A DNA stretch of 53,830 nt from positions 1-53,830 of the forward strand of contig DJLT01000034.1 of NCBI GenBank assembly GCA_002435145.1. The letters are read 5' to 3'. Positions within the stretch are counted from its first letter, which is position 1; every line of letters begins with the position of its first letter. The DNA is from Neptuniibacter sp. UBA6509. GTDB lineage: Bacteria > Pseudomonadota > Gammaproteobacteria > Pseudomonadales > Balneatricaceae. A program made the position numbers and the translations under genes. Of this stretch, positions 5,779 through 40,774 are shown in pieces. Below the pieces are notes generated by a model that saw only the letters and a list, made by a program, of their open reading frames with translations, ran no database searches and had not been told where the DNA came from.

Positions 5779-7601
5779 GGCATTGCCATTGAGTAGCCGC
5801 CGTAAACATCAGCATCCATGCCTTGGGCGTTGAGGGATTTAACGCTTACGCGCTTGTCTTCGACTTCTATTTTAAGATGGGCATTGGCTCGCTCTTCAGC
5901 GTCTAGCGCTTTTTGTGCATTTTCATTACCAAAAAAGGCGAGCGATTTGGCAATGGCGCGACCTATATCGTCTGATAGATCTGTACCTTTTAAGGTTGTA
6001 TTGTAAATGACGGTACCAGCGCCATAGCCCAGAGCACCAGAAGCTGTTGTGGCTAATCCGGCTGTTCCCACAGCGCCTGCACCTAAATAACCTAACTTAC
6101 TTAATTTAGAACCGCCGATTAAACCTGCACTGGCTTTAGCTTTAGAGATCGTTGTATGGGAGAGTGGGCCTTTGCCTGGAAGTGAACCAGGTGCATTAAA
6201 GCCGGGTTGGAAGCCAGGTACTGCACTGTTCGGCATATTCACAACATAGACAGGGGTAACACCGGCAACCTCTTCAAGTGCTTTACCCGTCACAACGCCG
6301 CCTGCTAATACACTGCCTTTCCCTAATGAGCCGCGTACTGCTTTGCCGCCATACTTAGCAGCTAAGCCACCGGCGAGTAGTGCGCTAGATCCACCGAGTA
6401 ATAGGTCGAATCCATCAAGCCCTTGACCACCTTGCTCTTTCTTATCCAGGGCATACTTAATTAACTTATTTACAGAGCCGTTAATCGGTTGAACAAATGC
6501 ATCAGCGGCTTGACCGAGTGCGCCTTTAAGACGGGATACTTGATCCCCAGAGTTATCAAGGGCATCTGCCAGATCACGTTTTATAGTGCCTGTAGCATTA
6601 CGAGTTGTTTCGGTAATCTCACGCATTCCCGCTATAGCATCGCCACCCAGTAAGGCTTTCATGCCACGCTGGGTATCCATGTCGGTTTCACCAAACGCGG
6701 CCGCTATAAGGTTGTCACGTTGTTGATCGTTCTTTTGCTTTTTAAAGAGTGTGGATATCTCTTCGATAACAGAGAAAGTATCTCGGCGGTTGCCATCTTT
6801 ACCGTAAAAGCTAATACCTAACTTATCGCGAACTTTATTCTGGTATTTCTGATTAGTGAATATTCGCAGGGTGCTATCGGCGAGGGTGGCTAAGCGTTCG
6901 GGCTGTTTCTCGATTTTAGAAAGCTGCTCTATAAAGCCTAACGTCTGGCTAAAATCTAGGTTGGCAGTTTTCGCGTTGTTACCCACGCGGGAAAAGATGC
7001 TGGATAGGTCTTCTAGTTCGGCATTACCTAAGCGACCTGCTACTGTCATTTTGTCGAGCATGTCGGTAGCGACACCAACTTCGGATAGATCAAAGTCAAA
7101 GATCTCAGCACCAACCGCTAAGCCGCTGGCTAAAACGTTAGAGTTAGCGCCAGTTACCACCTGAGCCGGTGCGATCGCTTTGGTTGCCTGTATTGATTCT
7201 TTCCAATTCAGACCGGATTGAAGCAGGGAATCATTGGCGGTACGTGAGCTATCAACCGTTACGCCGTATTGCTTCTGTAGATCATAGAGTTCAGCACGTA
7301 GCGCCTTGGTTTCAGAGCGTGCAACGCCAGCGGTTTGTGACATCCGTGTCAGGTTTTTATCTAGCAGCGCTGAATCTTTTGCTATCTGCAGGCCGCTCCA
7401 TGCAGCCCCGATCGCAATGATCTCATTACGGAAATTACCGAGTACTCCACCCGTAAGTTGCTTAAACTCGTTACGAAGTCCGCGCAGCTCTCGTTCTGAT
7501 TTGTTTGTAAACGTACCCACAGCACGGCTTGAATGCTGCAGTCCACGTGTGAACTGTGCATTCTTTAAGCTGAGTATGAGGCTAGTTGTCAGATCGTTCA
7601 C
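5775..7601 (-). CDS. Tail tape measure protein (Mu gp42-like)
   Basis: 608 residues, starting at GTG 7601. It follows the frameshifted chaperone gene, the standard position for a tape measure. The N-terminal 200 residues are helical (LSLKNAQFTRGLQHSSRAVG, split) with a TMP-core type segment. A Gly/Ala-rich hydrophobic part near residues 400-540 (GGSSALLAGGLAAKYGG, LGYLGAGAVGTAGLATTASG) is probably the membrane-active region. Length sets tail length. The start overlaps the frameshift extension by 20 bp, so translation is probably coupled. Confidence 0.9.
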   Translation of the reverse strand: MNDLTTSLILSLKNAQFTRGLQHSSRAVGTFTNKSERELRGLRNEFKQLTGGVLGNFRNEIIAIGAAWSGLQIAKDSALLDKNLTRMSQTAGVARSETKALRAELYDLQKQYGVTVDSSRTANDSLLQSGLNWKESIQATKAIAPAQVVTGANSNVLASGLAVGAEIFDFDLSEVGVATDMLDKMTVAGRLGNAELEDLSSIFSRVGNNAKTANLDFSQTLGFIEQLSKIEKQPERLATLADSTLRIFTNQKYQNKVRDKLGISFYGKDGNRRDTFSVIEEISTLFKKQKNDQQRDNLIAAAFGETDMDTQRGMKALLGGDAIAGMREITETTRNATGTIKRDLADALDNSGDQVSRLKGALGQAADAFVQPINGSVNKLIKYALDKKEQGGQGLDGFDLLLGGSSALLAGGLAAKYGGKAVRGSLGKGSVLAGGVVTGKALEEVAGVTPVYVVNMPNSAVPGFQPGFNAPGSLPGKGPLSHTTISKAKASAGLIGGSKLSKLGYLGAGAVGTAGLATTASGALGYGAGTVIYNTTLKGTDLSDDIGRAIAKSLAFFGNENAQKALDAEERANAHLKIEVEDKRVSVKSLNAQGMDADVYGGYSMAMP

Positions 7602-8021
7602 GGGTGAATAACTCTATATAGTATTCAAATTCATCCACTGGCAACGCGAGTATTTCAGTGCGTGACCAGTGGGTTTTTAGGGCAATCAGCGCTATTTGCT
7701 GCCAGATTGACTCGCTTCGTTTTCGTCCTCCGCTGGCACGCTGTTGAGCTTTCCCTGGGCAACACGCAGCGCTTGATAATCAGCGGGTTTCATCTTGCGG
7801 ATCTGTTCCAATGAAAACGGTCCTTCGCAATCACCGATACGTACTAACTGCCGAGCAATAAGTGCGCCGTTAAATGCCAGCTGGTTTTCAACACCACCGG
7901 CTTCAACCTCTGCATCAAACAGTTCGCCAGCCGTGGCGACTTCACGCATTTCAAATGCTTTCTGCATTTGTTTTTTAAACTCAAAACCATGTGGCAGGGT
8001 GCCTGTTTGAATTCGTTCCAC
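7582..8021 (-). CDS. Frameshifted tail assembly chaperone (gp41 -1 product)
   Basis: A -1 shift at GGGAAAG (7755 to 7749) joins the first 91 codons of the gp41-like gene to a 55-codon extension ending at TAG 7584-7582, giving about 146 residues. The extension reads IWQQIALIALKTHW, then SRTEILALPVDEFEYYIELF, which is the usual C-terminal pattern of G-T type chaperones just before the tape measure. It has no start codon of its own near its beginning and would otherwise be an unexplained 90-bp gap. The long form is expected in small amounts and bridges the chaperone to the tape measure protein. Confidence 0.8.
7692..8021 (-). CDS. Tail assembly chaperone, short form (Mu gp41-like)
   Basis: 109 residues, unshifted product. 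It contains a conserved TGTLPHGFEFKKQMQKAFEM start, a VENQLAFNGALIARQLVRIG segment and a PADYQALRVAQGK block, as in the Mu gp41/tail assembly families. It coats the tape measure protein during tail polymerisation. Codons for Gly-Lys within AQGK form the slippery site, after which the unshifted frame ends 18 codons later at TAG. The position between tube protein and tape measure fits. Confidence 0.85.
   Translation of the reverse strand: MERIQTGTLPHGFEFKKQMQKAFEMREVATAGELFDAEVEAGGVENQLAFNGALIARQLVRIGDCEGPFSLEQIRKMKPADYQALRVAQGKLNSVPAEDENEASQSGSK
7749..7755 (-). promoter_or_regulatory. Programmed -1 ribosomal frameshift site GGGAAAG
   Basis: On the coding strand the heptamer is G GGA AAG in the gp41 frame, the X XXY YYZ form and identical to the site used by lambda G/GT. 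A -1 slip gives GGG AAA and opens the 55-codon extension. Mu itself is reported to use a different slip (-2) at this gene pair, so the site here differs from the Mu paradigm. Confidence 0.8.
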
Positions 8022-8047
8022 GTTCTTATCCTCAGTAAAGTTAACGT

Positions 8048-8398
8048 TTACACCGGTTCAGCAGGGTTACCCTGCATTTCAATTGGGATATCACCACCGG
8101 ATACCTTGGGGGTATTGGTGATAAAGGCTTCAGTCACAATCCAACTTTGTCCAAGTTCGTCCTGGACGTTTACGTTGACATCAGATAACCCGCGAAACTG
8201 CTCTAGGTAGCCTTGTAGATTAGGTACCGTAAAAGAGAGCATGGCTGGGTTATCATTTTCCATATGGTGGCTTCGTCCTGACTCGGTCATCTTCCCTTCA
8301 AAAGAGATTCCGCCTGGATCGAATGATGCACCCGGATTTGATTCAACTCGGCCTATACCTGGCAGAGTGAGTAATATTTTCTTCGCAGCTTTAGCCAT
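8048..8398 (-). CDS. Tail tube protein (Mu gp40/M)
   Basis: 116 residues, matching the small tail tube family of Mu-like phages. Seen: KILLTLPGIGRVESNPGASF at the N-terminus, GGISFEGKMTESGRSHHMEN with the H-x-M/E loop, and DNPAMLSFTVPNLQ. The protein polymerises as the inner tube through which DNA passes. It lies 8 bp downstream of the sheath gene and ahead of the chaperone gene, the canonical order. Confidence 0.92.
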   Translation of the reverse strand: MAKAAKKILLTLPGIGRVESNPGASFDPGGISFEGKMTESGRSHHMENDNPAMLSFTVPNLQGYLEQFRGLSDVNVNVQDELGQSWIVTEAFITNTPKVSGGDIPIEMQGNPAEPV

Positions 8399-8406
8399 GA
8401 TTCACC

Positions 8407-9867
8407 TCACACAATAAATTGTTGTTTACCGGCGAATACGCGCGCCTGGTTCACTAAGTTAGGCGTATCACGCCAGTTAAGACGGTTACGATCGTCAACG
8501 TCACGTTCAACAATTAGGTTGCTGTCGTACGTGCTGTAATCTTCAACCCAGCCGCGATCTTCTAGTTTTCGATACAGTGCGAGTAATTCGCCACGCCAAA
8601 CTTTAGGAGTGACAATGGCTTGCCCAGGCGCAAATTTGGTACCGTCATCAGCTAGCTTGCAGCGCGGATACTTCTGGGCTTGAAGTAGGCGCTGTTCAAA
8701 ACGAATACGTTCTAAGGTTTCAGGAGTACAAATATCCAGATAACTAGCATCGGGAAGGCTGGCATCGTTGGTTTGGTACATAGTGATCTGCCGTTCAATA
8801 CGGCAAGTACCATCACGATCGACGGTAAAGGTGCTCATACCGTCATATAGCAGCAAGTTACGTTCTTGGCGTGTCCATTGGTCCTCAACTGCAGGAGCCT
8901 TCATACCTTTAAGGTCTAAGGTTTGCAGTGGGCGAGCGGGGTCAATGCTGAGTGATAACGCTGCAACGGCTGCGTTGATAGCAGCAACTTCATAAACCGG
9001 AGTAGGGCTGGTGTTAATTGCCATACAGGAAACATGCGGGTTATTACGTCCGCTGCCGTAAGTGCCTGCCGTAGAGTGGGTGCCAGAAAAAGCGCTAAAA
9101 ACACGACAGCCTATTTGGCGCATCGGTCCAAAGCGATCATCTAGCTCGGTTTCTAACGCCACCATGTTAGCGATATCGGTGTAAGGGTTAATGAGCCAGT
9201 TAAACCACTCATCACCTAACGCATCGATGGCCGTACTGATATCAGGATTGCCTGTCCCACCACTCATCGTGCCAATGGTAAGTGCTAAACCTGCAGGTAA
9301 GGATTCGCCCTGATAAAAGTTGGTACGTATATCAAAGTCGTTAAATACTTCACCTTTATGGCGTGCGGTAACAGTAACCGTATTAGTGGCCACTGCTGCA
9401 GTCACAGGTAGATCAAGATCTGCATTAATCGCCGCATTGATGCTGGTCGCAACGGTATTGGCATCATCATCTTGTGCGACACCGATCGTTACCCGTTTAC
9501 CTCCTAGGTACAAGGCAATTGTGCCTGCTGCCGTTGGGGCTGATGCCACCGCAATGGTTGTAGTGGCAGTATTACCTGCGCCATTATCGTCTAATGCGAT
9601 CGCCCAAAGTTCTGTTTCAGGGTTGGCTTTAATCGAAGCGGCTAATGTCAAAGCCATCATAGAGCCTCGACCAAATAGCGTGACAGCCTGGCTTGGGTTC
9701 GTCACTCTAATAGGAACGCCTTCAGGATGGGAGCCAGAAGCTAAACGTTGCCCAAAGGCCACTTGCTTGTGCATAACACTTACTGCACCGGCCAGTTCAT
9801 TATTGAACTCTATATAAGCGCCTGGTGTGCGCAGGCTTGCTGGAATGGCATCAAATGAAATAGTCAT
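8407..9867 (-). CDS. Tail sheath protein (Mu gp39/L)
   Basis: 486 residues, close to Mu L. The N-terminal motif PASLRTPGAYIEFNN, a TLFGRGSMMALTLAASIK segment and the C-terminal YRKLEDRGWVEDY block are typical of contractile sheaths. A Thr/Ala-rich insertion (about residues 95-205) would be the exposed protease-resistant domain. The ATG shares one base with the stop of the DUF2635 gene upstream (TAATG). The sheath contracts to drive the tube through the envelope. Confidence 0.95.
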   Translation of the reverse strand: MTISFDAIPASLRTPGAYIEFNNELAGAVSVMHKQVAFGQRLASGSHPEGVPIRVTNPSQAVTLFGRGSMMALTLAASIKANPETELWAIALDDNGAGNTATTTIAVASAPTAAGTIALYLGGKRVTIGVAQDDDANTVATSINAAINADLDLPVTAAVATNTVTVTARHKGEVFNDFDIRTNFYQGESLPAGLALTIGTMSGGTGNPDISTAIDALGDEWFNWLINPYTDIANMVALETELDDRFGPMRQIGCRVFSAFSGTHSTAGTYGSGRNNPHVSCMAINTSPTPVYEVAAINAAVAALSLSIDPARPLQTLDLKGMKAPAVEDQWTRQERNLLLYDGMSTFTVDRDGTCRIERQITMYQTNDASLPDASYLDICTPETLERIRFEQRLLQAQKYPRCKLADDGTKFAPGQAIVTPKVWRGELLALYRKLEDRGWVEDYSTYDSNLIVERDVDDRNRLNWRDTPNLVNQARVFAGKQQFIV

Positions 9868-12409: not shown

Positions 12410-12805
12410 CTAGTCGATGAAGACCCAAACGCCGTTTGTTTCTACATCTTCGATACGACCGGCAGCAGAGCTGCCAGTACTGACAGCAGTCACTGTCTGG
12501 TCATCGGAGATATACGCGGTTGAGCCGATATGCGAGCGATCAACATCGCCAGCATTCTTGAAAAAATGCGCACCGGTTTTGGTTTCAATGGTTCCATTAC
12601 CGTCTGCGCCGGTGCTGTTATTGCTGGGGTGCGTAGCGACACCGCGAACCCGCAAGCCTGTCGCTGCAGTGGCAGGTTCTGCAAAATGCGTTGCGTTCAA
12701 TACAACCAACGCGCCAGAAAAGATAACTGCAGTAGCGGCAACAGGGTCAGAGTGTGAGCCCTGGGCGCGGCGTTTAGTTGGGCGATCTTTTGTTAAAGCA
12801 GCCAT
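12410..12805 (-). CDS. Probable head decoration/cement protein
   Basis: 131 residues, rich in Ala, Thr and Gly, beta-rich, no membrane segment. It lies between protease/scaffold and major head protein, where Mu-like phages often encode a small capsid-associated protein. Segments such as ATAVIFSGALVVLNATHF and SHIGSTAYISDDQTVT resemble capsid cement proteins that bind the outer shell. The assignment is from position and composition. The first base overlaps the stop of the protease gene. Confidence 0.6.
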   Translation of the reverse strand: MAALTKDRPTKRRAQGSHSDPVAATAVIFSGALVVLNATHFAEPATAATGLRVRGVATHPSNNSTGADGNGTIETKTGAHFFKNAGDVDRSHIGSTAYISDDQTVTAVSTGSSAAGRIEDVETNGVWVFID

Positions 12806-13932
12806 TACTTGTCACCTTTTTTTGGTTGATTCTTTAAGTAATCTTCAAGAGAGATCCCCATGTTTTCGCAGACTTGTCGTTCTTGAGCACTCAGTGCTGC
12901 AACCCCAGCCTTTTTATCTTCTTCAGGGTTGTCTTTACCGTTTGTCTGCTGAGCAGATAGGGCTGCGAGGGGAGTAGCTTTATCTAAATAAGATGTAAGC
13001 GCGGCCATATCTTTGTTGCCGAGATCGCGTGCCCAGCCTTCCATTGCAGATAACAGACGACCGTCTTCTAGCGCGGAGCTTATTGTTTGCTCTAGCTCAT
13101 TCGCATCTGTACGGGATGAAAGAGCGGCGACCTGCTGTTGCAGTTGTTCGACAGCAGCAATAGGCACGTATTTAGCCGGGTCTACTTTATTGTCTTGTGC
13201 AGAAAGCGCTGCCACCTGCGTTTTAAGTCCATCGGTCTCGCTGGCTTTAGCCAAAGCGGCATCTACAGCAGATAGGGCTGCAGCTTCTTGTGCTTCGGTC
13301 ATCTGTTCACCGTCTGCCAGTTCAATACCGAGTCGGGCTAACAGCTTGCGCATTGCTTCGTTCATGGGAGGCGTCTCCTGTGGGTGTTGGTTTAATATGT
13401 TGGCGCTTAGGGCTTCTAAGTCTTGCAGGCCGTCAACACCCGCACGGTTAGTGAGGGCAGCACTATGGATATAGAGCGGTTCGCCAGTGTGTTTGTCGTA
13501 AGGGAAAACGGCGGATAGGAAACGGTATTCCTCGCCTTTAATGAATTCTTTGGCGCGGGAGGTCCACTGCGGTTTTATCCATAAACCAGAACCCTCCCGC
13601 CACTCCATGTCTTTGATCCAGCCAGATGCGGGGGCAGGCTGGCCGTTTTGCTCTTTGTTTAATGTTTGGTGTTCGTAATCGACAACCAAATCATTAGCGG
13701 AGTTTTTGGCATACTGAATAAGACGGGAAGCAATCTCTGCATTGATAACCCACTGACCACCGGGTACATCAAAAGGGCGACCATCAACTGCACTGAAATG
13801 ACCAGCAGGCAGTAAGTGGCACCAGCCATCACTCTGGTCATCAAATGCCAGAGACAGCGAAGCAAAACCAACATTAGCATCGGTGGTTGCTGATAAAACA
13901 GCGAGAGATAGGGAGTTGCGATTCGTCTTCAT
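12805..13932 (-). CDS. Head maturation protease and scaffold (Mu gpI/Z)
   Basis: 375 residues. The N-terminal half matches the Mu I protease family: LLPAGHFSAVDGRP, then NDLVVDYEHQTL, and PASGWIKDMEWREGSGLW. The C-terminal half is helical, charged and scaffold-like, and carries five ALSA tetrapeptides, several as AALSAQ, that could be processing sites. The ATG at 13932 lies only six bases after a possible -10 hexamer of the late promoter, and no good Shine-Dalgarno sequence is seen, so this mRNA may be leaderless or the true start may be slightly downstream. Transcription from this promoter would serve the head and tail genes. Confidence 0.9.
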   Translation of the reverse strand: MKTNRNSLSLAVLSATTDANVGFASLSLAFDDQSDGWCHLLPAGHFSAVDGRPFDVPGGQWVINAEIASRLIQYAKNSANDLVVDYEHQTLNKEQNGQPAPASGWIKDMEWREGSGLWIKPQWTSRAKEFIKGEEYRFLSAVFPYDKHTGEPLYIHSAALTNRAGVDGLQDLEALSANILNQHPQETPPMNEAMRKLLARLGIELADGEQMTEAQEAAALSAVDAALAKASETDGLKTQVAALSAQDNKVDPAKYVPIAAVEQLQQQVAALSSRTDANELEQTISSALEDGRLLSAMEGWARDLGNKDMAALTSYLDKATPLAALSAQQTNGKDNPEEDKKAGVAALSAQERQVCENMGISLEDYLKNQPKKGDK

Positions 13933-13938
13933 GCCGCC

Positions 13939-13987
13939 AGAATAGCGGCATGAAGTAAGGCGTGGGTTTAACCTTGGTTAGATGTTT
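13939..13987 (-). promoter_or_regulatory. Putative late promoter of protease operon (PI-like)
   Basis: The coding strand carries a 23-bp sequence (13,987-13,965) centred on TAACCAAGGTTA, identical to one upstream of the endolysin gene. Exactly 20 bp after it comes TATTCT (13,944-13,939), a possible -10. There is no -35 hexamer, which fits an activator-dependent promoter. Mu has its C-dependent PI here. The single Mor/C homologue at 25,182-25,604 is the likely activator. The role is inferred from repetition, spacing and position. Confidence 0.65.
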
Positions 13988-14194
13988 TTAGTCGTTGTTT
14001 TCAACTTCTAGTGCTTCTTGTATAAGGTCTGCATATTCGCCAAGACACTTAAGGTGATTTTTAATATTAACCGAGCCTGCATCACTAGCAGTTCTAACAT
14101 GAATCAACTCTAAGGCGGCTTCAACAGCAATTTTTCTTTTGTCTTTGGCGTCTAACACGTCATTATTTGTTGAATATAATTTGATCTTTTCCAT
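13988..14194 (-). CDS. Small hypothetical protein, cargo patch 1
   Basis: 68 residues, acidic and helical, no recognised family. Segments include KRKIAVEAALELIHVR and KNHLKCLGEYADLIQEALEV. A GGAAG sequence lies about 8 bp before the ATG, and the stop codon adjoins the late-promoter repeat. It is the last of three collinear AT-rich genes between gpG and the protease gene, none of which occurs in Mu. It may be an accessory subunit, small regulator or antitoxin of the two genes upstream; this is a guess from arrangement. Confidence 0.55.
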   Translation of the reverse strand: MEKIKLYSTNNDVLDAKDKRKIAVEAALELIHVRTASDAGSVNIKNHLKCLGEYADLIQEALEVENND

Positions 14195-14226
14195 GTATCA
14201 GTACTTCCTTTTATTTATGAATTATT

Positions 14227-14700
14227 TTAATTTGATGGTCTTGTATGAAGCGCGCTTAGAACTGAATATAGTTTCCAGCCAGTGTCAGCAAAGCTCACTA
14301 AACTTATCGCAAAAAAACTTGAAATAACGGTTAAAGAAATTTGCTCATAATTAGCCGGTAGATACATTGAAATAATCCCTATGGTGGCACTTGCTAGGAA
14401 TAATATAATTGAAATAAGCAAGCTATCTACTAGGCGATGATAATGTCTGGTTTTGACTAGATTACGAATTAGCCTAGTGCTGGCAATACTCATGAGTATT
14501 GCACCTGCAGCAACTAAAATACTCATTATTGTTACTGAATGAGAAGTTAGACCTGCTATGAGCTTTTCGGCCCTATCCGTAGGAAAAAGGTCGTATCTAT
14601 AGTAGACCGATAGCCCTATAGACAGCATCAGCCCTAACTGAAGAAATACCCAGCGTACTTTTCTACGAATTGATGTTGCCCTATTCGAGACCCTGCTCAT
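14227..14700 (-). CDS. Four-helix membrane protein, cargo patch 1
   Basis: About 157 residues from ATG 14700; a longer start at 14754 is possible. Four hydrophobic segments are visible: WVFLQLGLMLSIGLSVYY, then VTIMSILVAAGAILMSIA, LLISIILFLASATIGIISMY and ISLTVISSFFAISLVSF, with a basic N-terminus (RRKVRW). It overlaps the end of the 301-residue gene by 20 bp, so the two are translationally coupled and probably work together. A soluble protein paired with a small membrane protein is common among phage-exclusion and abortive-infection modules. No family was recognised. Confidence 0.65.
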   Translation of the reverse strand: MSRVSNRATSIRRKVRWVFLQLGLMLSIGLSVYYRYDLFPTDRAEKLIAGLTSHSVTIMSILVAAGAILMSIASTRLIRNLVKTRHYHRLVDSLLISIILFLASATIGIISMYLPANYEQISLTVISSFFAISLVSFADTGWKLYSVLSALHTRPSN

Positions 14701-15586
14701 CCAGAACCAGCCTAATATCTTCAATGTTTTTTTCGCGGACCTTTTCCAAAGCATTAAAGATTGACTCTGGAACCGGATAACGCCCTTCCTGTTGAACTGG
14801 ATCAGTTGATCCCTTGATTCGGTCTTCGATCAAATCAATAGGATCTGAATCTTCATCAAACCAAACTTTAGACATATTAACGGGAACTGTTGATCCTACA
14901 AGTGTAGTCATCCCACCTTTTACGACATCATTTAAATAGTTTCTTATCGAATGTCGTCCAGGAGGGTTAGCGCTAACAGTTATAGAGCATGATACACCGT
15001 CAACGGAATTTAAAAGAGACATTAATGGACCTGAAAATTGATCGTGGCCTTCATAAGCTTCAGTAGCTGTTGGTCTAGTGAAACTTATCTCAAATTTTCT
15101 AGGTTTCATATTCCCATTAAGAATGCGCTCTACTGCATCAGGTCTAAGAACAGGGGATAAACCAACACCGATAACTCTATCTTTACTTAAAACAGTGCCT
15201 AGCAATTCACCTGCTTTATTGATATTTAGTCCGTTGCCGTTAACTTGGAATGTCAACATTTCTAAACCTGGATCATATAAAAAATGATTTTTTTCAATAA
15301 GACCTTCAGAATCATCTAGATCTATGGGACGTTCTTCTATTGATGATCTATCCCCAATATTTGGTAGGTCATCATCACGAAATTTGGCTAGAACCCCTCT
15401 CATTCTGCCGCCTTGGAAAATATTTAATTCTCGTAATTGGAAAACCTGCCCATTTACCCTATGTTCTAAAGGAAGGTCTTCAGGGTTAATTTCATGTAAT
15501 AACGAACTTAATTTGGAAGGGCTATCTGTACCATCACTGACATGAGCTGTATAAAAGCTAACAGAATACTTCTTTGTGTCTGGCAT
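14681..15586 (-). CDS. Hypothetical 301-residue protein, cargo patch 1
   Basis: Soluble, no membrane segment. From memory it resembles a family of uncharacterised phage-borne proteins (possibly the DUF6731 group, unverified). Shared features are a YSVSFYTAHV start, a MRGVLAKFRDDDLP block, an acidic EGLIEKNHFLYDPGLEMLTF segment around residue 95, and a RKFEISFTRP strand later. The C-terminal third is charged and helical. It leads a three-gene patch inserted between gpG and the protease gene and overlaps the membrane-protein gene. A superinfection-exclusion or anti-phage role is inferred from the arrangement, not shown. Confidence 0.6.
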   Translation of the reverse strand: MPDTKKYSVSFYTAHVSDGTDSPSKLSSLLHEINPEDLPLEHRVNGQVFQLRELNIFQGGRMRGVLAKFRDDDLPNIGDRSSIEERPIDLDDSEGLIEKNHFLYDPGLEMLTFQVNGNGLNINKAGELLGTVLSKDRVIGVGLSPVLRPDAVERILNGNMKPRKFEISFTRPTATEAYEGHDQFSGPLMSLLNSVDGVSCSITVSANPPGRHSIRNYLNDVVKGGMTTLVGSTVPVNMSKVWFDEDSDPIDLIEDRIKGSTDPVQQEGRYPVPESIFNALEKVREKNIEDIRLVLDEQGLE

Positions 15587-15785
15587 TACATTTCCTTATA
15601 GTGCGAGAGTGCTACCAGTTGTTAGTAGCAGCACATCTCCTTGTGCTATTTAGGCTTAACGATACCCAAGCGCTTTACTTGTCCGAACTGAAGGCGTTAG
15701 ACCTGCGTTAGAATCTTCAAACGTACCGCTTCCAAACCAACATAGCAACTACAGTTTATAGCGGCTTAGATCGCCTTACAGGCTG

Positions 15786-16253
15786 TTACGCCTTTCTATC
15801 AATATGTTCCTTAACTATCTCGATAATCTCTAATTCATCTTCTGCACTTAATCCAAAATAAGGCCTTGCCTCTATATTCCTTTCTTCATCACCAAATTGA
15901 TGGGTGGCTGCATACGCGGTTGTACCTGGTCCGGTACTTACGCCTGCGACATCAGTTGAATGAAACGGGTAGATGGTATCGCGTAGGTGTAGGTGCTCGC
16001 CGTGTAGTATTTGATTAACGGGTACGCCTTTCTTTCGTTTACGGGCTAGGGTCTCCGGTGTGAGTGTTGCCCAAGGTGTGCCATCGGGTGCTTCTTGGTC
16101 GTCAAAGTGATCTCGGCTTCGCTCATGCAGAAACTCGGACACCTCCAGCATGGCAGGGGACATATCGTTTGATAGCTTATGCAGCTTTTTAAGGTAGTGC
16201 TGAATTTGCTGATCGTTGTAGTCGACGCCTAAGGTTAGATGGGTTCCCGCCAT
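15786..16253 (-). CDS. Virion morphogenesis protein (Mu gpG, gp31)
   Basis: 155 residues. The segments FLHERSRDHFDDQEAPDGTP, WATLTPETLARKRKKG and the final EERNIEARPYFGLSAEDELE are hallmarks of the phage virion morphogenesis family, in which G acts as a tail/head completion factor. In Mu, G follows F and ends the lysis-head operon. The 199 bp after its stop (15,587-15,785) hold no gene and lead into cargo patch 1. One weak hairpin is present there, near 15,604-15,637. Confidence 0.9.
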   Translation of the reverse strand: MAGTHLTLGVDYNDQQIQHYLKKLHKLSNDMSPAMLEVSEFLHERSRDHFDDQEAPDGTPWATLTPETLARKRKKGVPVNQILHGEHLHLRDTIYPFHSTDVAGVSTGPGTTAYAATHQFGDEERNIEARPYFGLSAEDELEIIEIVKEHIDRKA

Positions 16254-16356
16254 TGTTATTTTATCCTATACTTAAGGTTCTCCAGACAGACAAGGACTTC
16301 GAGTTCCGTCCACTGATCTGCCGGTGGGGTGCAACGGCGAAGCGCGGCATCCATCC

Positions 16357-17640
16357 TTATTCTTCTTTTACTTGTTCTTCTCTTCTATACAGATTCACAC
16401 CTTCACGCTGTTTTTCTAAGTACGTGTCATTATCGGGTACTTTGCTACCGCGTTGCTTTCGGTGGGGTGTAAACGATGTATTCCCGGTCCAGATGCCTTG
16501 TCCGTATTCAAATGCACTAAAACCGTGAATTGGTTGGCTTGATGATCCTTCATCTAACGTCCAGCGCTTTATATAACGGCGCTTCAGTTTGTATTTACCG
16601 GGGTGAGCACGGTCAGGCTCTAATATGGACCAGATCTCATCAGGATCTTTGATCGCTCTTGCTAACAATCGCATATAGCGGTGGCGTAATTTGTCCTTAG
16701 ATACCTTGAGCTGCCCATCAGCGCCGCGAAATAGATAATCGTTAATCGCTATGGGTTCACTCAGTACGTCTTTATAAACCATGGGACCGTCTGCACTGAA
16801 CTCGTTTAAGAAGGCATTAACGTAAGATTCCTCTGGTAAGTCGTCGGGCAGTATGTCGCTTTGCTTGGCTACTTGCGGTTTAGGTAATGGGGGCTTAGCA
16901 ACGGGGCCGATCGGTATGGGTTTAGCATTCGCTGGCCATTGTTCTATAAACTGGGGCGTACTATGACGAAGCCAACTTTGCCCAGGTGTATGTTCAAAGC
17001 CGGGATCGATCCCTAAAGGCACTTGTTTAAGCTCACCTGTACGTTTATCTAAATGCTCTTTGTATTCATCTGCAGGGGCGGTATCCGGTGTGGTTTTACC
17101 TAAACGCTTCATAGCGCGTTTTGATTTAGGGAATTTCTTGCACTTGCAACCATAGCCATTAGAAGGGCTGTGGATATCCCACCAAGGATCATTTGAAGCG
17201 AGTACCAATCGATCCCACGCTTTATGTTGGGGACGAAAGTTTTCGGCACCGGAGTGGCGATATTCCATGTAGGGGAACAGTTCTTGAAAACCCGGCTCGG
17301 TCATCTGAGCTTCTCGCCCTGCGTTGTATGCTTGGCGAATATTGGTTTCATAGATTAGTTTAGAGCGCCATCCGCGACTGCCGTTATAGTCCCAACCGTG
17401 TTTTTCTACGATGCTGTCAAAACGTTTACGGAAGTCTGCCAAGGTTTCACCGTCTTGAATGGCGGCTTGTATGGCGTTAGAAAAACCTTCGACAATGGCA
17501 GTTTTATTGGCACCGGCCACCATAAAGGCGTGGTCATGTTGTTTACCGTAAACATCCGACCAGCCGTTAGTGGGCAGCGGTAGCTTCTGCTGTAGATAAT
17601 CAATCGCCTGCTTAAACGGTTTATCTCCATAGGTTGGCAT
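16357..17640 (-). CDS. Minor head protein F with C-terminal PBECR2-like domain
   Basis: 427 residues. Residues 1-180 match the Mu F (gp30) head family: WRSKLIYETNIRQAYNAGRE, AWDRLVLASNDPWWDIHSPS and NGYGCKCKKFP. Residues about 272-420 are separate and match the pattern of the phage barnase/EndoU/colicin-like nuclease domain PBECR2: DPDEIWSIL, KLKRRYIKRW, FSAFEYGQGIWTGNTSF and a C-terminal YLEKQREGVNLYRR. A nuclease-like domain carried on an injected or head-associated protein could act in the new host cell. It shares its first base with the stop of the portal gene, and 103 bp separate it from gpG. The domain call is from motif recall. Confidence 0.87.
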   Translation of the reverse strand: MPTYGDKPFKQAIDYLQQKLPLPTNGWSDVYGKQHDHAFMVAGANKTAIVEGFSNAIQAAIQDGETLADFRKRFDSIVEKHGWDYNGSRGWRSKLIYETNIRQAYNAGREAQMTEPGFQELFPYMEYRHSGAENFRPQHKAWDRLVLASNDPWWDIHSPSNGYGCKCKKFPKSKRAMKRLGKTTPDTAPADEYKEHLDKRTGELKQVPLGIDPGFEHTPGQSWLRHSTPQFIEQWPANAKPIPIGPVAKPPLPKPQVAKQSDILPDDLPEESYVNAFLNEFSADGPMVYKDVLSEPIAINDYLFRGADGQLKVSKDKLRHRYMRLLARAIKDPDEIWSILEPDRAHPGKYKLKRRYIKRWTLDEGSSSQPIHGFSAFEYGQGIWTGNTSFTPHRKQRGSKVPDNDTYLEKQREGVNLYRREEQVKEE

Positions 17641-22583: not shown

Positions 22584-23095
22584 ACGGGGTATTCCTCCCA
22601 GCACAACTCAAAGTGGAAACCATCGCATTTAGGCTCTTCACCTTCTGCTTTCTTCCTAGCTATGTAGGCTTTAAAGCCTTGTTCTGGGGTATCGTATCGG
22701 TCTAAATAAGCCCAACTCCCCCCCCATTTAATACGCACCTTTAGTTCTTCAGAAGCTATTTTTATCGCATTAGCAATGATGAAATAGTGTTCCCAATCCC
22801 AGTTAACGGTGCCATCTACCCATGCACCAAGATCAACAGCGTGAGCAATCGGGCCCAGTTCTGGCGAATTTTTTGGCACTTTTCCTAAATGGCGAGAATT
22901 CTTGGTCCAAGATTGGCCTTGACGGATCAAGTGGCGTTGGCGTTTTTCTGTACGTAGCGTTTCCAGAACGGTGAAATCCACACACGAACGTTGTAATGCA
23001 AGTGCTACAACTGCGGCTAAATCGGGGTGTGCTTTTTTTAATCGTTGCTTGGAGCGACGACCAAGAGCAAAGGGTGAAGCTGAGTTTTCAGACAT
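22580..23095 (-). CDS. Endolysin, M15-type peptidase
   Basis: 171 residues. The N-terminus resembles peptidoglycan-recognition segments (SKQRLKKAHPDLAAVVALAL). The catalytic metal ligands are visible as SRHLG (H69), then AHAVDLGAW (H85/D88) and a late DGFHFEL (H161), matching M15-type L-Ala-D-Glu or D-Ala-D-Ala endolysins. It cuts the peptide stems of the cell wall. No signal peptide; export through the adjacent holin is expected. It is the first gene of the late lysis operon, downstream of the promoter repeat. Confidence 0.9.
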   Translation of the reverse strand: MSENSASPFALGRRSKQRLKKAHPDLAAVVALALQRSCVDFTVLETLRTEKRQRHLIRQGQSWTKNSRHLGKVPKNSPELGPIAHAVDLGAWVDGTVNWDWEHYFIIANAIKIASEELKVRIKWGGSWAYLDRYDTPEQGFKAYIARKKAEGEEPKCDGFHFELCWEEYPV

Positions 23096-23102
23096 AATAA
23101 AA

Positions 23103-23156
23103 TCCCCGATAGGGTTGAAGTCCTTAAGTTTCGTTAGGACTCCAGCTTATCGGGGA
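23103..23156 (-). promoter_or_regulatory. Nested hairpin before endolysin gene
   Basis: TCCCCGATA (23,103-23,111) pairs with TATCGGGGA (23,148-23,156), and inside it AGTCCT (23,119-23,124) pairs with AGGACT (23,136-23,141). On the coding strand the outer stem is followed by TTTTATT and, two bases later, the ATG at 23,095. It could end read-through from the cargo genes or form a leader structure for the endolysin mRNA that hides its start. Part of it overlaps the proposed -10. Confidence 0.6.
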
Positions 23157-23192
23157 TAGAGAGAAGGGCGGTTTAACCTTGGTTAGATGTTT
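23144..23192 (-). promoter_or_regulatory. Putative late promoter of lysis operon (Plys-like)
   Basis: Coding strand 23,192-23,170 repeats exactly the 23-bp sequence found before the protease gene (dyad TAACC-AA-GGTTA). After the same 20-bp interval comes TAAGCT (23,149-23,144), a possible -10. Both sites then continue with GG. The lack of a -35 and the placement before the lysis gene match Mu Plys, which is activated by C. The repeat also overlaps the stop codon of the cargo gene by two bases. Confidence 0.65.
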
Positions 23193-23742
23193 AATTACTT
23201 AACGCTGGAAATTCTTCACCATAAAAGGACTCATACTGAATTTCAAACTTAATATGCTCTATATTTTCTTTAACAATATTTAGGTTAAATATAGTTGGGT
23301 CAATGTTGCCATCAGGTTCTAGTTTTAATAGTGGGATAACTTTCTCTGCTTCAAGAGCTTCCCCATGACTTACACTCTGTAGTGTAATCAGTACCGAATT
23401 GTCTGGAAATGCTCCTCTGAATAATCGCCAAAGATGCTGCACAGTTTCATCAGAATTCTCATTATCCATTATGATGCCATTTATTGTCATGCTATAGCTT
23501 GTAATGATTGCGGGCCCAAGGCCGTTATTAGATAAATTAAATACTAGAGATAAATTATGATTAGAGTGAGCGTAATCTAGGTGTAGGTGAGGCCTGACAG
23601 ATAATTTATTATGTTCTCTAGAATATTTGGCTTGCAAGTAGGTTGAAAGCATTGCACAGATTGCAATTATTGTGGCAATTATGGATGCTAGGTTTTCAGA
23701 AATCCATCCAATAGTACATGTGAAAAAACCAACACAGCTCAT
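23191..23742 (-). CDS. Membrane-anchored hypothetical protein, cargo patch 2
   Basis: 183 residues. An N-terminal hydrophobic helix (about residues 14-37, ENLASIIATIIAICAMLSTY) is followed by a RPHLHLDYAHSNHNLSL strand and NNGLGPAII. The NxGlGpAxI beta-sandwich pattern is widespread among uncharacterised anchored proteins of phages and genomic islands. It lies 11 bp after the secreted-protein gene and is AT-rich. The function is unknown; alteration of the lysogen surface or phage exclusion are possibilities. Confidence 0.6.
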   Translation of the reverse strand: MSCVGFFTCTIGWISENLASIIATIIAICAMLSTYLQAKYSREHNKLSVRPHLHLDYAHSNHNLSLVFNLSNNGLGPAIITSYSMTINGIIMDNENSDETVQHLWRLFRGAFPDNSVLITLQSVSHGEALEAEKVIPLLKLEPDGNIDPTIFNLNIVKENIEHIKFEIQYESFYGEEFPALSN

Positions 23743-23753
23743 CTAAAATTCTC

Positions 23754-24287
23754 TTATTCCAATACAAATTCAACAGGTTCTTCGTAAGAACGGATATCGA
23801 GGTGCCAGTTATTACCATCGAGATAAGTAGATAGTTTAATCCCCCCAATAACTGTTTCAGCATCTTCGCTATTCATATTCTTAATTATCCAAGCAGCCGC
23901 TTTTTCAGGCTCAGCATTAACGTACTCTAATGATGCTACAGCTCTAAACAAATTAGCAGTAAGTTTTCTATCCATATCAGCTAAAGTCCTGCCGCCAAAT
24001 GCCGTGATATTGATATTGTAGAGAGTGTCTTGATTGGTGTGACTCCATAATTTTGCATAAACAGAATAGTCATTTTTTGTCGTATCACCGGCTTTAAGCT
24101 CCCAGCGGTAATGAGTGGTTGGGCCATCTTGTACAGGATTAGGTCCTGTAAGATTAAAGCCTCTGGTTATAAACGGAGCTAAAGCTTTTTGTGGTGAAAG
24201 CTCTGGTATGGGCGGTTTAGGTTGTCCAGCTAAAATTGAGACGGAAAAAAGAGAGAGAAATAGTGCGAGAATTGTTGTCCGTAACAT
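23754..24287 (-). CDS. Secreted/periplasmic hypothetical protein, cargo patch 2
   Basis: 177 residues with a clear signal peptide: TTILALFLSLFSVSILA followed by GQPKPP, cleavage after about residue 20. The mature part is mixed alpha/beta with a THYRWELKAGDTTKNDYSV segment and a C-terminal LSTYLDGNNWHLDIRSYEE. No family was recognised. It is the first gene of a two-gene minus-strand unit, with a divergent start 114 bp from the plus-strand gene. Probably a lysogenic conversion factor; this is inference. Confidence 0.6.
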   Translation of the reverse strand: MLRTTILALFLSLFSVSILAGQPKPPIPELSPQKALAPFITRGFNLTGPNPVQDGPTTHYRWELKAGDTTKNDYSVYAKLWSHTNQDTLYNINITAFGGRTLADMDRKLTANLFRAVASLEYVNAEPEKAAAWIIKNMNSEDAETVIGGIKLSTYLDGNNWHLDIRSYEEPVEFVLE

Positions 24288-24401
24288 TTGTATAGCTCCT
24301 TGGCATTACTAGAAGGTATATAGTAACGACCTTAGATGAAACAATAAACTAATCACTGGTAATATAAGTTATAGCTTTGTGACTATATGGAGGAAATATA
24401 A

Positions 24402-25181
24402 GTGGCGATTGGAACGTGCAAGCTATGTTTTAAGGAAAAGGATTTGAAAAAGTCGCATGCCATAGCTAACTCTATTTTTAAAAGAATTTTACGGCCAGCT
24501 AATGGAAAAGCAATTTTGCTTTCTAACGGTGATGAGAAAATCGCTTATACGAGTGATAGCTGGGCTGAAGAACAGCTATGTGGTGAATGTGAAGGGCTTT
24601 TAAGTCGTAAATATGAAAAGTATTCATTGGAAGTATTACGTGGGAGAAGGGGAACCATAATAAACCACCCTACCAGTGATTATTATCAAAATGTGCAGGT
24701 AAAAGAGCTTATTTTATTTTTTTTATCAATTTATTGGAGAGGGGCACATTCAAGTCATAAATCTTACCACGCTCTCAATATATCTTTTTCTAATAATATG
24801 CTCCTTCGTGAGGCCATTTTAAATAACACTAATGTGCTTTTGAGTAAGTATGCTGTGAGGGTTTATAAATTAATAGATAGCACAGGTTCAGCAAACGACT
24901 TTGAGTCGAAAGTTTTTAAAAACTTTATAGCATCACCTTATGTTAAGAACCCCAGTGTTCTGCATAGTAGGGTCACGATTTGTTTTGCATTTGAGGGGTT
25001 TTACATTGAGATTATCGAAGGTGGGGTAAAATTTAAGGAGAGGTCTACTATTGGTGCTTTGAATGCTAATGAAGAGAGTATGAGAATAAAGCATATATGT
25101 CTTTTTGATATTCCACAATTAGTTGAAATTATGGGGAAATCTCTTGATAAGCAGCGGGCAGGGCACACACTGATTAAATAA
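24402..25181 (+). CDS. Zinc-motif protein, possibly HNH-like, opposite strand cargo
   Basis: 259 residues, plus strand, GTG start at 24402 behind GGAGGAAA. The N-terminal part has CKLC (C6, C9), an SHA pair (S18, H19), and LCGECEGLLSRKYEKY (C60, C63). This CxxC...SH...CxxCE pattern occurs in uncharacterised proteins that may be degenerate HNH endonucleases. The remainder has no known pattern. It is very AT-rich and transcribed against the lytic genes, so it is expressed in the lysogen if at all. Its stop touches the stop of the Mor/C gene without a gap. Nuclease activity is unproven. Confidence 0.65.
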   Translation: MAIGTCKLCFKEKDLKKSHAIANSIFKRILRPANGKAILLSNGDEKIAYTSDSWAEEQLCGECEGLLSRKYEKYSLEVLRGRRGTIINHPTSDYYQNVQVKELILFFLSIYWRGAHSSHKSYHALNISFSNNMLLREAILNNTNVLLSKYAVRVYKLIDSTGSANDFESKVFKNFIASPYVKNPSVLHSRVTICFAFEGFYIEIIEGGVKFKERSTIGALNANEESMRIKHICLFDIPQLVEIMGKSLDKQRAGHTLIK

Positions 25182-25604
25182 TTAAAATAGCTCTGGTTGA
25201 ATTCTCTTTCTGCAGTATGCTCGTTGTTCTTCAATAATTAAATAAACTTGCTTCACACTTATGTCGTACTTAGTCGCAAGATCTGAGGGTTGAATACCTT
25301 TTTCCGCCCAATCTCTATGTAGGTCAATATTCCTAATAGCTCGTTGTAGCGCATCTTTTTTAGGAAGGTAGAAATAGCGGCCACCACAATACATTGATTG
25401 TTCATGCAAAAGAGTGAGGCTTATTTTCTGGGCCTCTTCTTCACCGTATCCCATGCGATTTAGTGCTGCTGAGAAAATATCGATAAGGGCTGTGAGATCC
25501 TTGGGCCATTTTTTACGGACTTCTGCCGGGATCTCGCTCATATGGCTGGCGAGATCGTCGGTGAAGGACGCTTCTCCAAGTAGGTCTTTTTGTTCTTCAG
25601 ACAT
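25182..25604 (-). CDS. Mor/C-family transcription activator
   Basis: 140 residues, the length of Mu C. The Mor/C signature is present: CGGRYFYLPKKDALQRAIRN, then DLATKYDISVKQVYLII as the helix-turn-helix with an acidic dimerisation half before it (PKDLTALIDIFSAALNRMGYG). In Mu, Mor turns on the middle promoter and C the four late promoters. Only one homologue is seen here, so it may do one or both jobs. It overlaps the gp16-like gene by 8 bp. The two 23-bp dyads at 13,965 and 23,170 are its likely targets. Confidence 0.9.
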   Translation of the reverse strand: MSEEQKDLLGEASFTDDLASHMSEIPAEVRKKWPKDLTALIDIFSAALNRMGYGEEEAQKISLTLLHEQSMYCGGRYFYLPKKDALQRAIRNIDLHRDWAEKGIQPSDLATKYDISVKQVYLIIEEQRAYCRKRIQPELF

Positions 25605-32757: not shown

Positions 32758-33045
32758 TTATGCAACACGTACATGCGGTCTTACTGCAGGTGATGTATAT
32801 TTAACTGTTAGGGATTGATAGCGAGAGGGCCATATCTCTTCGGGCTTGAGCTCTAGGAAATCGGCAATGATTTTTTGAGCAGTGGGAGCGTTCTTTCGAT
32901 AGAACACTACATACAAAGCACGACGGTTGTCATAGCCATTAGCTTCGGCCAGTTTTGATAGATTGCTACCACGGTTTTTTACCGCGAATAGAACCTCATT
33001 CTGGCTCCAGTCCTCAGTTTTTGAGTGGGTCTTTGATTTGCTCAT
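32758..33045 (-). CDS. ner: Ner-like regulator
   Basis: 95 residues. It has EDWSQNEVLFAVKNRGSNLS followed by LAEANGYDNRRALYVVF as the HTH, and the diagnostic ELKPEEIWPSRYQ near the end. Ner represses the early and repressor promoters in Mu and favours the lytic path. The C-terminal 15 residues beyond the usual end are extra. First gene of the early operon, start 158 bp from the repressor start. Confidence 0.92.
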   Translation of the reverse strand: MSKSKTHSKTEDWSQNEVLFAVKNRGSNLSKLAEANGYDNRRALYVVFYRKNAPTAQKIIADFLELKPEEIWPSRYQSLTVKYTSPAVRPHVRVA

Positions 33046-33113
33046 TTTTTTGCTCTGCTCTGTATTACTTTTAACTGTTAGTTGTTGGGCTAACTTGTAA
33101 TACAGGTTAGATC

Positions 33114-33176
33114 ATATTTGTACGCATATCAATATAAATATACGCGTCCGTTTCTATTTATTTATATTTGTACGCA
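33114..33176. promoter_or_regulatory. Divergent operator region between ner and repressor
   Basis: A 13-bp direct repeat ATATTTGTACGCA occurs at 33,114-33,126 and 33,164-33,176, exactly 50 bp apart. A weaker copy lies at 33,134-33,146 (9 of 13). The GTACGC half-site recurs in the palindrome at 33,319. The region carries the start of the early operon (minus) and of the repressor (plus), so these are the probable repressor operators. Confidence 0.7.
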
Positions 33177-33203
33177 CTAAAAATATAAAACCTTTACGAT
33201 TCA

Positions 33204-33920
33204 ATGAGTTATATGTCTGAAGATATTGATAGCAAGAAAGAGACAGAGCGTCCGATTCCAAGTGAAGGAATAAGACGCTTCTCTGAACGACTAGAAATAC
33301 TAGTTCAAGAACATGGTAGCGTACGTTCGTACGCATCCAGTGCTTCATTGTCAGAAGGTGTGGTTCGTAAATATTTAAAAGGAGATACATATCCAACGTT
33401 GGATCGTGTGGATATGTTGGCTGCTGCGGGTAATGTAAACGCCGCTTGGTTGGTCACAGGGGAAGGCAGCAAGCACCCTGGAGAGGAAAATCAGGAAGGG
33501 CTTGAAGAGTTTGCCCTTATCCCTGGATATAACATAGAAGTAGCAGCCGGGATCGGCTCTTTTCCTGATGGTGAAGAATCCACACGAAAACTGGCATTTC
33601 GCCACAAGTGGCTTAGATTTAGGGGCTTAAAGCCTGAAAGCTTGGTGTTGGTGTTTGCTAAAGGCGACAGCATGGAGCCAACTATTAACGATAACAATAC
33701 GTTAATGATCGATACCAGTAACCGAGAGCTTAACGACGGCCATATATATGTAATACGAACTGACGGGCACTTAATCGTTAAGCGTATTCAAAAATTGTGG
33801 AATAAAGGCATACTGCTACTTAGCGACAACAAAGAGTACAGAGAGCAACAAATAGAACCAAATGAAGCTGATGACCTGGAAGTGATAGGGAAGGTCGTTT
33901 GGATAGGGAAAGATGTTTGA
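33204..33920 (+). CDS. Prophage repressor, HTH + S24 peptidase
   Basis: 238 residues. N-terminal HTH: RSYASSASLSEGVVRKYLKG, then a LexA/CI-type autocleavage domain with EVAAGIG (probable Ala115-Gly116 cleavage bond), GDSMEPT (Ser156) and LIVKRI (Lys193). It is larger than and unrelated to Mu c but resembles repressors of other transposable phages that respond to DNA damage. It maintains lysogeny and its cleavage by RecA* would induce the phage. Transcribed away from the early operon. No good Shine-Dalgarno was seen; ATG 33213 is an alternative start. Confidence 0.93.
   Translation: MSYMSEDIDSKKETERPIPSEGIRRFSERLEILVQEHGSVRSYASSASLSEGVVRKYLKGDTYPTLDRVDMLAAAGNVNAAWLVTGEGSKHPGEENQEGLEEFALIPGYNIEVAAGIGSFPDGEESTRKLAFRHKWLRFRGLKPESLVLVFAKGDSMEPTINDNNTLMIDTSNRELNDGHIYVIRTDGHLIVKRIQKLWNKGILLLSDNKEYREQQIEPNEADDLEVIGKVVWIGKDV
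33319..33334. promoter_or_regulatory. Palindrome GCGTAC-GTTC-GTACGC inside repressor gene
   Basis: A perfect 6+6 inverted repeat with a 4-bp spacer lies in codons 39-44 of the repressor. It uses the same GTACGC half-site as the operator repeats, so it may be an internal operator for negative autoregulation. Confidence 0.5.
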
Positions 33921-33935
33921 TTCAAGGAAGATACA

Positions 33936-34367
33936 ATGACACCAAGGCTTTCTGTACCTACTGATAATATTTTTAAATTCTTTGCGTTGTTTGGAACAGT
34001 AATGCTGATCAGTAGTTTCCTAGCAATGGTTTTTATTAATGATAATACTAATATGCGCTTAATGGAGTGGGCGGATGAGTTAGCCTCTTTTGAGGCGGAT
34101 CAGGTTGTTACAAGTTATGAAACTAAGCGTGCAGAGATGTTGGAACGTTTGATTGAAATCGAAGCAGAAAATAAGCAAACGTTTATAATTGTGTTAAATG
34201 TATTAATGATTTTAGGGGCATCTTTAGCAGCAGTGGGTTTTCTTAAGTGGTTTAAGGATATACAGCCTATGGAGGATGAGTATAAAGAGCTGCTGATAGC
34301 CCAAATGAAAAAAGATCTGAATAAACCGTCTGTTGTAAAAAGATCAAAGAGGCTTGAGAAGAAGTAG
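33936..34367 (+). CDS. Two-helix membrane protein downstream of repressor
   Basis: 143 residues with two hydrophobic helices: KFFALFGTVMLISSFLAMVF and FIIVLNVLMILGASLAAVGF, separated by an acidic helical stretch (EADQVVTSYETKRAEMLERL) and followed by a basic tail. It starts 15 bp after the repressor stop on the same strand, so it is expressed in the lysogen. Candidates are superinfection immunity or membrane-located exclusion. No family was recognised. Confidence 0.65.
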   Translation: MTPRLSVPTDNIFKFFALFGTVMLISSFLAMVFINDNTNMRLMEWADELASFEADQVVTSYETKRAEMLERLIEIEAENKQTFIIVLNVLMILGASLAAVGFLKWFKDIQPMEDEYKELLIAQMKKDLNKPSVVKRSKRLEKK

Positions 34368-34392
34368 CGTGTTTTTTGTCTGCTATGACATT

Positions 34393-34451
34393 AAATGCGC
34401 TAACTATTTAAGTTGGCGGTTAGAAACGCGCTAAATTGAAAAACGTCTAAC
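34393..34451. repeat. Short repeats at probable phage left end
   Basis: AAATGCGCTAAC (34,393-34,404), AAACGCGCTAAA (34,424-34,435) and AAACGTCTAAC (34,441-34,451) are related, spaced 31 and 17 bp. They come just after the last phage gene, where MuA-type sites L1-L3 are expected. A possible end lies at CA 34,459-34,460. The terminal nucleotides cannot be proved here. Confidence 0.4.
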
Positions 34452-34489
34452 GCCGTACCATTTATCGTTTTATTGCTTTCCATCCCCCG

Positions 34490-34530
34490 TAATATGGGAA
34501 TCCCACTAAAAACCATTTAATCCCATATTA
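34490..34530. repeat. Inverted repeat near the phage-host junction
   Basis: TAATATGGGA (34,490-34,499) and TCCCATATTA (34,521-34,530) are perfect 10-bp inverted repeats with a 21-bp loop. AATCCC elements lie inside both arms. It falls in the non-coding stretch 34,368-34,774, which otherwise shows no gene. It may belong to the phage end or be host regulatory DNA. Confidence 0.5.
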
Positions 34531-35185: not shown

Positions 35186-35285
35186 GTTTTAGCTGTTTCT
35201 TTTTAACTGTTTCAAAATGTAATCGTTCTTTATTGTGCTAGGCTATGTTTTCTTTATAGAAGCATTTAATTCACGGCGAGATTTA

Positions 35286-38755: not shown

Positions 38756-38761
38756 AGTGAA

Positions 38762-40755: not shown

Positions 40756-40774
40756 ATCTTCGAGGAGGTTAAAT

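Follow-up and report, generated by a model that had tools for sequence, protein, structure and literature searches.

A putative RexAB-type gene pair between genes G and I of a Mu-like phage region in Neptuniibacter

What is the role of three AT-rich genes lodged between gene G and the protease gene I of a Mu-like phage? In the window, i.e., the whole 53,830-nucleotide stretch from Neptuniibacter sp. UBA6509, three collinear ORFs occupy this place on the minus strand (Table 1). The initial annotation had described them as an AT-rich patch between G and the protease gene; the flanking genes are indeed G and I, and the Mu proteins mapped along the window follow the Mu order. Its remark that Mu has nothing here is loose, as the G-I gap of Mu measures 196 nt and holds an annotated gyrase cut site. 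The GC content ranges from 0.384 to 0.402 between 14001 and 16000, against 0.508 (13001-14000) and 0.480 (16001-17000) in the adjoining kilobases. Low GC is not unique to the patch, since other stretches, e.g., 23001-25500 and parts of 33000-43000, are equally AT-rich. The former (GC 0.370-0.379) is a second AT-rich patch, between the lysis operon and the Mor/C gene. A PBECR2 domain (barnase/EndoU/RelE-like nuclease family, E 2.9e-22) lies at the C-terminus of the Mu F-like head protein (16357-17640).

Table 1. Features of the locus and of the related intervals (coordinates of the window, or of the named locus).
Feature	Position	Strand	Basis or remark
RexA-like protein, 301 aa; predicted DNA-clamp sensor	14681..15586	-	PF20505, AF2 model, Foldseek
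RexB-like four-helix membrane protein, 157 aa (175 aa from 14754)	14227..14700 (14227..14754)	-	AF2, PADLOC, hhalign
68-aa protein, phrog_5901; passenger outside the conserved pair	13988..14194	-	phrog match, tblastn
Gene G	15786-16253		PF05069; flank of patch
Protease gene I	12805-13932		PF10123; flank of patch
Late-promoter-like element TCTAACGCAGGTCTAAC, two half-sites, 11-bp pitch, before the RexA-like gene	15696..15712	-	zero-mismatch match
PI-like element TCTAACCAAGGTTAAAC before gene I	13966..13982	-	within 23 bases identical to the lysis-gene copy
Late-promoter-like element before the lysis gene	core 23171-23187	-	23 identical bases around the gene I copy
Mor/C-type activator gene	25182-25604		PF08765
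Hairpin over ribosome-site region and start codon of gene I; neighbour, outside the pair	13927..13955	-	-20.9 kcal/mol
Repressor	33204-33920	other strand	S24
Other slot cargo	L073 3833-4306; L076 3476-4366; L077 3303-4385		same G-I slot

Both larger genes are under purifying selection. In comparison with an Amphritea relative (L020, 75% identical), pN and pS reach 0.154 and 0.858 (saturated) for the first gene and 0.268 and 0.841 for the second, the portal gene giving 0.158 and 0.844. The third gene is a passenger and stands outside the conserved module. The 68-residue protein matches phrog_5901 (E 1.3e-15). A tblastn search for it in the fetched loci and alignment rows gave nothing at E<=0.01; these loci include L020, L022, and L032, where the pair occupies the same slot. 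The protein has no match in phages or viral contigs, is found only in its own genome among 57 relatives, and gives two weak matches besides its own genome among 369 genomes of the class.

Predicted folds of the two conserved proteins

The 301-residue protein matches a single Pfam family at E<=1, PF20505 (DUF6731; 47.8 bits, cut-off 27), a name not found in the open-access literature searched. PF15969, the Pfam RexA family in which lambda RexA itself scores 326.8 bits, is not matched. Its AlphaFold2 model (pLDDT 83.0, pTM 0.77) was compared with the PDB using Foldseek. Lambda RexA (8twq, E 1.6e-7, prob 1.00) ranks first and alone passes E<=0.001, followed by RdgC (2owl, E 1.4e-3) and by inner kinetochore chains. 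Since RdgC and the kinetochore proteins IML3/CHL4 are reported as relatives of RexA in the available text of PMC11077077, the structural neighbours of the model are those of RexA. The overall superposition on 8TWQ gives TM-scores of only 0.39/0.42 (rmsd 18.2), which may be read as differing domain placement; RexA is proposed to move its domains when binding DNA (PMC11077077, available text). By sequence, the kinship is barely visible: hhalign gives prob 4.4 and E 0.009, collinear over residues 88-261, and a sequence search of solved structures returns matches only at E 0.3 or worse, RexA not among them, so that the link rests on the fold. The initial claim that this protein resembles only uncharacterised ones thus stands by sequence but not by the predicted fold, which the structure prediction suggested at that time has brought out. 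The attribution of a RexA fold to DUF6731 is based on models and is counted as new, the link not having been found in print in the open-access literature searched.

The second protein had been announced as a four-helix membrane protein encoded by an overlapping gene. Its AF2 model (pLDDT 92.5) displays four long helices (residues 3-34, 43-71, 86-112, and 116-152), and the overlap measures 74 nt from the start at 14754 (175 aa) or 20 nt from an alternative ATG at 14700 (157 aa). No ribosome site is obvious by eye at either start, and the gene may begin at 14700 rather than 14754. The PADLOC RexB model matches the protein with E 0.0018 (175 aa) or 0.0011 (157 aa), and 12 of the 27 family members at E<=0.1, with a best value of 2.9e-5. 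Compared by hhalign with an alignment of four lambda-type RexB proteins, the window's protein scores prob 70.5 (E 3.9e-5), the aligned part spanning helix 2 and the central loop. The Pfam RexB family does not match the window's protein, and its sequence kinship to RexB is weak.

With segments as drawn, all charges of the central loop (four) and of the N-terminus (six) are positive. This distribution suggests that both are cytoplasmic. The invariant position of the family (T84) and the near-invariant ones (N80, H86, and L90) all lie in or beside this loop. In gp31 of phage Sbash, defence is abolished by two substitutions in the loop that joins helices 2 and 3, according to the available text of PMC6426596. 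Searching BFVD with the membrane model gives a best E of 0.012, the top match coming from phage ctylc9, also the source of the first match of the RexA-like model. In third place comes a protein from Sbash (E 0.14, prob 0.97), which at 165 residues is as long as gp31. It lends mild support only, because helical bundles match easily and no match reaches E 0.001.

Pairing, distribution, and the G-I slot

Thirty-one related loci (11 + 20) were collected, of which 26 form, together with the window protein, the alignment A6; L025, L030, L034, L038, and L043 did not enter it, being duplicate, broken, or redundant. DUF6731 is recognised at E<=1 in 23 of these 27 proteins. A partner gene of 138-191 codons, taken as the longest same-strand ORF whose start lies between 150 nt ahead of the stop and 300 nt past it, directly follows the RexA-like gene in 31/31 loci and overlaps it in 26. 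This set comprises the duplicates L027/L043 and L033/L034, L025 being close to L033, and one locus (L030) with a broken RexA-like frame. At least three hydrophobic peaks, by a rough count, are observed in all 31 partners vs 3 of 145 other ORFs of 130-200 aa from the same loci. Five of nine matching phage records were opened (AUS531phi, cdtI, Vibrio phage PE001, Javan1, and Listeria LM 4-11-1), and all five have the membrane partner. DUF6731 exceeds its cut-off in four of them, as well as in L001, L003, L009, and L015. The PE001 protein has no DUF6731 match at E<=1 and aligns directly with the window protein at 8e-5.

Among whole genomes, 3 of 57 relatives and 4 of 369 members of the class encode DUF6731, the window's genome being counted in both. 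The partner check covered L001, L003, L009, and L015, with the fragments L010 and L011 left out: L009 and L015 possess a partner, and that of L001 has only two hydrophobic peaks. At L003 (1366-2232), an orphan DUF6731 gene stands without a membrane partner. The single-protein scan of viral contigs for close relatives gave no match, nor did the membrane protein alone as query in phages, and the plasmid search returned one record (55% of the query, E 3e-7). At L006 (1389-2896), a RexA-like gene, whose product aligns with the window's at 8e-5 and does not match Pfam DUF6731, is located together with an overlapping membrane partner directly after the integrase in a Vibrio phage of the Vinavirales (Varidnaviria). 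The pair thus seems to cross viral realms.

The surroundings of the pair vary. The window's repressor lies about 17.6 kb from it on the other strand, and the lambda-like placement beside the immunity repressor is not seen in the window. AUS531phi has the pair after a CI-like repressor, arranged as in lambda. The window's S24 repressor has a match upstream, within about 1.3 kb, in 9 of 35 loci (L016-L050, partly the same genomes), and 25 upstream proteins from 16 loci include Peptidase_S24 in six and HTH_3 in five. The G-I slot is occupied by the pair in the window, L020, L022, and L032, the RexA-like proteins of the latter three being 75, 51, and 28% identical to the window's, respectively. 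Rex pairs in Mu-like phages were not found in print in the open-access literature searched, and their occurrence in this slot is counted as new. Other Mu-like phages (L024, L035, L045, and L049) carry the pair before the terminase genes, a position roughly equivalent to that of the window's second AT-rich patch. In addition, a decayed Mu-like relic of Marinobacterium lacunae (L021, the same genome as L013 and L016) retains an open pair at 7349-9407 and a piece of gene G, with no other window-gene match in its stretch. There, the pair is downstream of a ClpB-like gene, and ORFs of similar peptides flank it in opposite orientation, as if repeats.

A survey of this locus in Mu-like relatives, suggested by the initial annotation, reveals other cargo. 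Among the matches listed, gene I is present in 76 of 80 Mu-like loci, 27 of which have a recognisable G upstream, as judged with a position filter. An iterated search for gene G drifted onto other genes and was discarded. Among these listed loci, the 27 G-I gaps have a median of 255 nt, and 24 lack a gene-strand ORF of at least 50 aa. The remaining three harbor one of 157 (L073), 296 (L076), or 360 aa (L077), for which no Pfam family over cut-off and no PADLOC model at E<=1 was found; they are candidates for defence or counter-defence cargo. The L076 product shows two strong hydrophobic stretches. Anti-CRISPR genes occupy exactly this slot in phages D3112 (G-acrF2-I) and JBD30 (G-acrF1-HTH-I), and a low-GC accessory region with anti-CRISPR genes has been described in such phages (PMC4378225, available text). 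In L077, a different gene is enclosed by counterparts of both elements that flank the patch in the window, with a single base changed in the second; this indicates that the cargo of the slot is exchanged.

Upstream elements and alternative readings

The PI-like promoter that had been noted before gene I recurs before the lysis gene, within 23 identical bases; the third copy, ahead of the 301-residue gene, differs slightly. The motif TCTAACSNNGGTYWAAC has three zero-mismatch matches in the window and none in 200 first-order simulations. As the pattern was drawn from copies near the patch, in the window and L020, the lysis-gene site is the independent one. Allowing up to three mismatches, 11 matches are found vs 6.24 expected, a number reached in 7 of 100 shuffles and not significant. 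Close copies precede the RexA-like gene in L020 and the other cargo in L077, and a similar repeat precedes the RexA-like gene in L022 and, on visual inspection, in L032. JBD30 and D3112 also show, by eye, a repeat with the 11-bp pitch before gene I. Half-site pairs with this pitch are present in 10 of 21 surveyed gaps of 60-450 nt, vs 3.3% of mononucleotide shuffles. Since copies stand before the lysis gene and gene I, we infer that these elements are Mor/C-type activator sites. The 199-nt gap before the RexA-like gene contains no standard sigma-70-like site (5 in the region vs 6.2 expected); a looser scan finds one 9-of-12 site, with a 19-nt spacing and its second hexamer next to the start codon. 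Together, the late-type element and the lack of a standard site in the gap point to late expression of the pair. This element is the main result against a simple defence of the lysogen, which would need expression in the lysogen; as far as the sequence can tell, the upstream findings do not support such expression.

A neighbouring feature, the hairpin over the start of gene I, is found in many Mu-like phages, with differing stem sequences, among the gene I starts of the window and 31 other loci. The mean folding energy at gene I starts is -13.1 (n=32) vs -7.3 at other starts (n=283), GC and start choice being unmatched between the two sets. It possibly exerts translational control of the protease.

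These elements give some room, tentatively, to the idea that a RexAB-type pair operates while the phage itself grows lytically: turned on late through the Mor/C-type activator, it would exclude superinfecting phages or tune the lytic switch rather than guard the lysogen. The recurrence of the element before the pair and before other cargo, and the lack of a standard sigma-70-like site, are consistent with it, as is the capacity of lambda RexA to bias the switch toward lytic growth (PMC11077077, available text). However, the assignment as activator sites is deduced only from the copies that precede gene I and the lysis gene, no enrichment of the motif is seen once three mismatches are allowed, the looser scan does detect a promoter-like site, and many relatives adjoin CI-like repressors.

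A toxin-antitoxin-like pair, with a soluble toxin and a membrane keeper, as proposed for Butters gp30/gp31, is unlikely. Butters, which reverses the roles according to the available text of PMC12894663, speaks for it, but its proteins give no Pfam match to DUF6731 or to the Rex families, and the window's membrane protein is akin to lambda RexB by the hhalign comparison above. More improbable still is a counter-defence operon of the anti-CRISPR type, an idea prompted by the use of this slot as the acr locus in Mu-like phages of Pseudomonas. Neither large protein is a small soluble inhibitor: one is a membrane protein, and the other has a predicted RexA fold. No HTH match is found in any of the three patch proteins; the 68-residue protein alone is of Acr-type size and could still be such a gene. 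That the genes encode virion or morphogenesis proteins, as their place inside the head gene cluster might suggest, is hardly credible, given the mostly empty G-I gaps among the matches listed and the pairs located beside repressors and an integrase in other phages.

A probable RexAB-type pair and its closest known systems

The two genes probably constitute a divergent RexAB-type abortive-infection (phage-exclusion) system, of RexAB type in fold, partner, and gene order, and of a sequence family other than Pfam RexA. Arguing for this assignment are 8twq as the only PDB match at E<=0.001 with RdgC next, the RexB alignment over helix 2 and the loop, the strict pairing, the purifying selection, the CI-like repressors upstream in some relatives, and the M. 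lacunae relic whose pair is still open. Arguing against it are the lack of a PF15969 match, the weak hhalign result and low TM-scores to RexA, the BFVD matches of the membrane model falling short of E 0.001, the lack of profile similarity to the Sbash proteins, the orphan L003 and the two-peak partner of L001, the distant repressor on the other strand, and the late-type upstream element. The soluble-plus-membrane exclusion plan foreseen by the initial annotation is supported by the predicted RexA fold, the four-helix RexB-like partner, and the strict pairing. As to an "undescribed defence module", the kind is known, namely RexAB, and the pair is probably a divergent member that databases still list as unknown.

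Mechanistically, the DUF6731 protein, with its predicted RexA fold, would dimerise as a non-specific DNA clamp and might sense phage DNA or replication complexes. Its target would then be the RexB-like four-helix protein of the overlapping gene, probably contacted via the positive, presumably cytoplasmic loop between helices 2 and 3, in which conservation is concentrated. By analogy with lambda, Sbash, CarolAnn, and P. putida RexAB, RexB would open a pore, the membrane would depolarise, and the infected cell would stop growing. The gene overlap may couple the synthesis of the two proteins. In a broader and rather doubtful extension, the RexA superfamily would include DUF6731 as a large branch without a name of its own, with a RexB-like channel at its side in almost every case. 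This branch would occur in phages infecting Gram-negative as well as Gram-positive bacteria and, judged by direct similarity but outside the Pfam model, in a Vibrio phage of another viral realm. Among Mu-like phages, it would stand behind a late-type promoter in the anti-CRISPR slot and exclude competitors during the phage's own lytic growth, not in the lysogen.

Rex exclusion was first seen 70 years ago, and to our knowledge its trigger is still unknown. The link between DUF6731 and RexA provides some thirty diverse, naturally paired candidates from phages of Gram-negative and Gram-positive hosts, and the family yields a testable map of the conserved RexB loop. Furthermore, probable exclusion genes, and not counter-defence alone, seem able to reside in the Mu-type anti-CRISPR slot.

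Five RexAB-like systems are counted as described in the available text of PMC12894663. With lambda RexA/RexB, the window pair shares the predicted RexA fold, a four-helix RexB-like partner directly downstream, and the two-gene order; it differs in belonging to DUF6731 instead of PF15969, in the overlap of its genes, and in its location away from the repressor, between Mu G and I. The prophage-borne P. putida RexABpp (PP_5643/PP_5644) likewise combines, by its description, a RexA-like DNA-binding protein with a four-helix membrane effector, but adjoins its repressor; RexBpp appears longer than the window's membrane protein, because a mutation at residue 181 is reported (PMC12894663, available text). 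Sbash gp30/gp31 and CarolAnn gp44/gp43 are also overlapping soluble and four-helix pairs (available texts of PMC6426596 and PMC6426606). No similarity to the Sbash proteins was detected by profile comparison, and CarolAnn gp44 matches no Pfam family at E<=1. The Sbash pair, with its own promoter, is away from the repressor, as is the window pair (PMC6426596, PMC6426606); adjacency to the repressor is therefore not required for a RexAB-type system, as far as the available text of PMC6426606 goes. Finally, the anti-CRISPR loci of D3112 and JBD30 share with the window the identical G-I slot and the 11-bp-pitch repeat before gene I, whereas their cargo consists of small Acr proteins, with an HTH protein in addition in JBD30.
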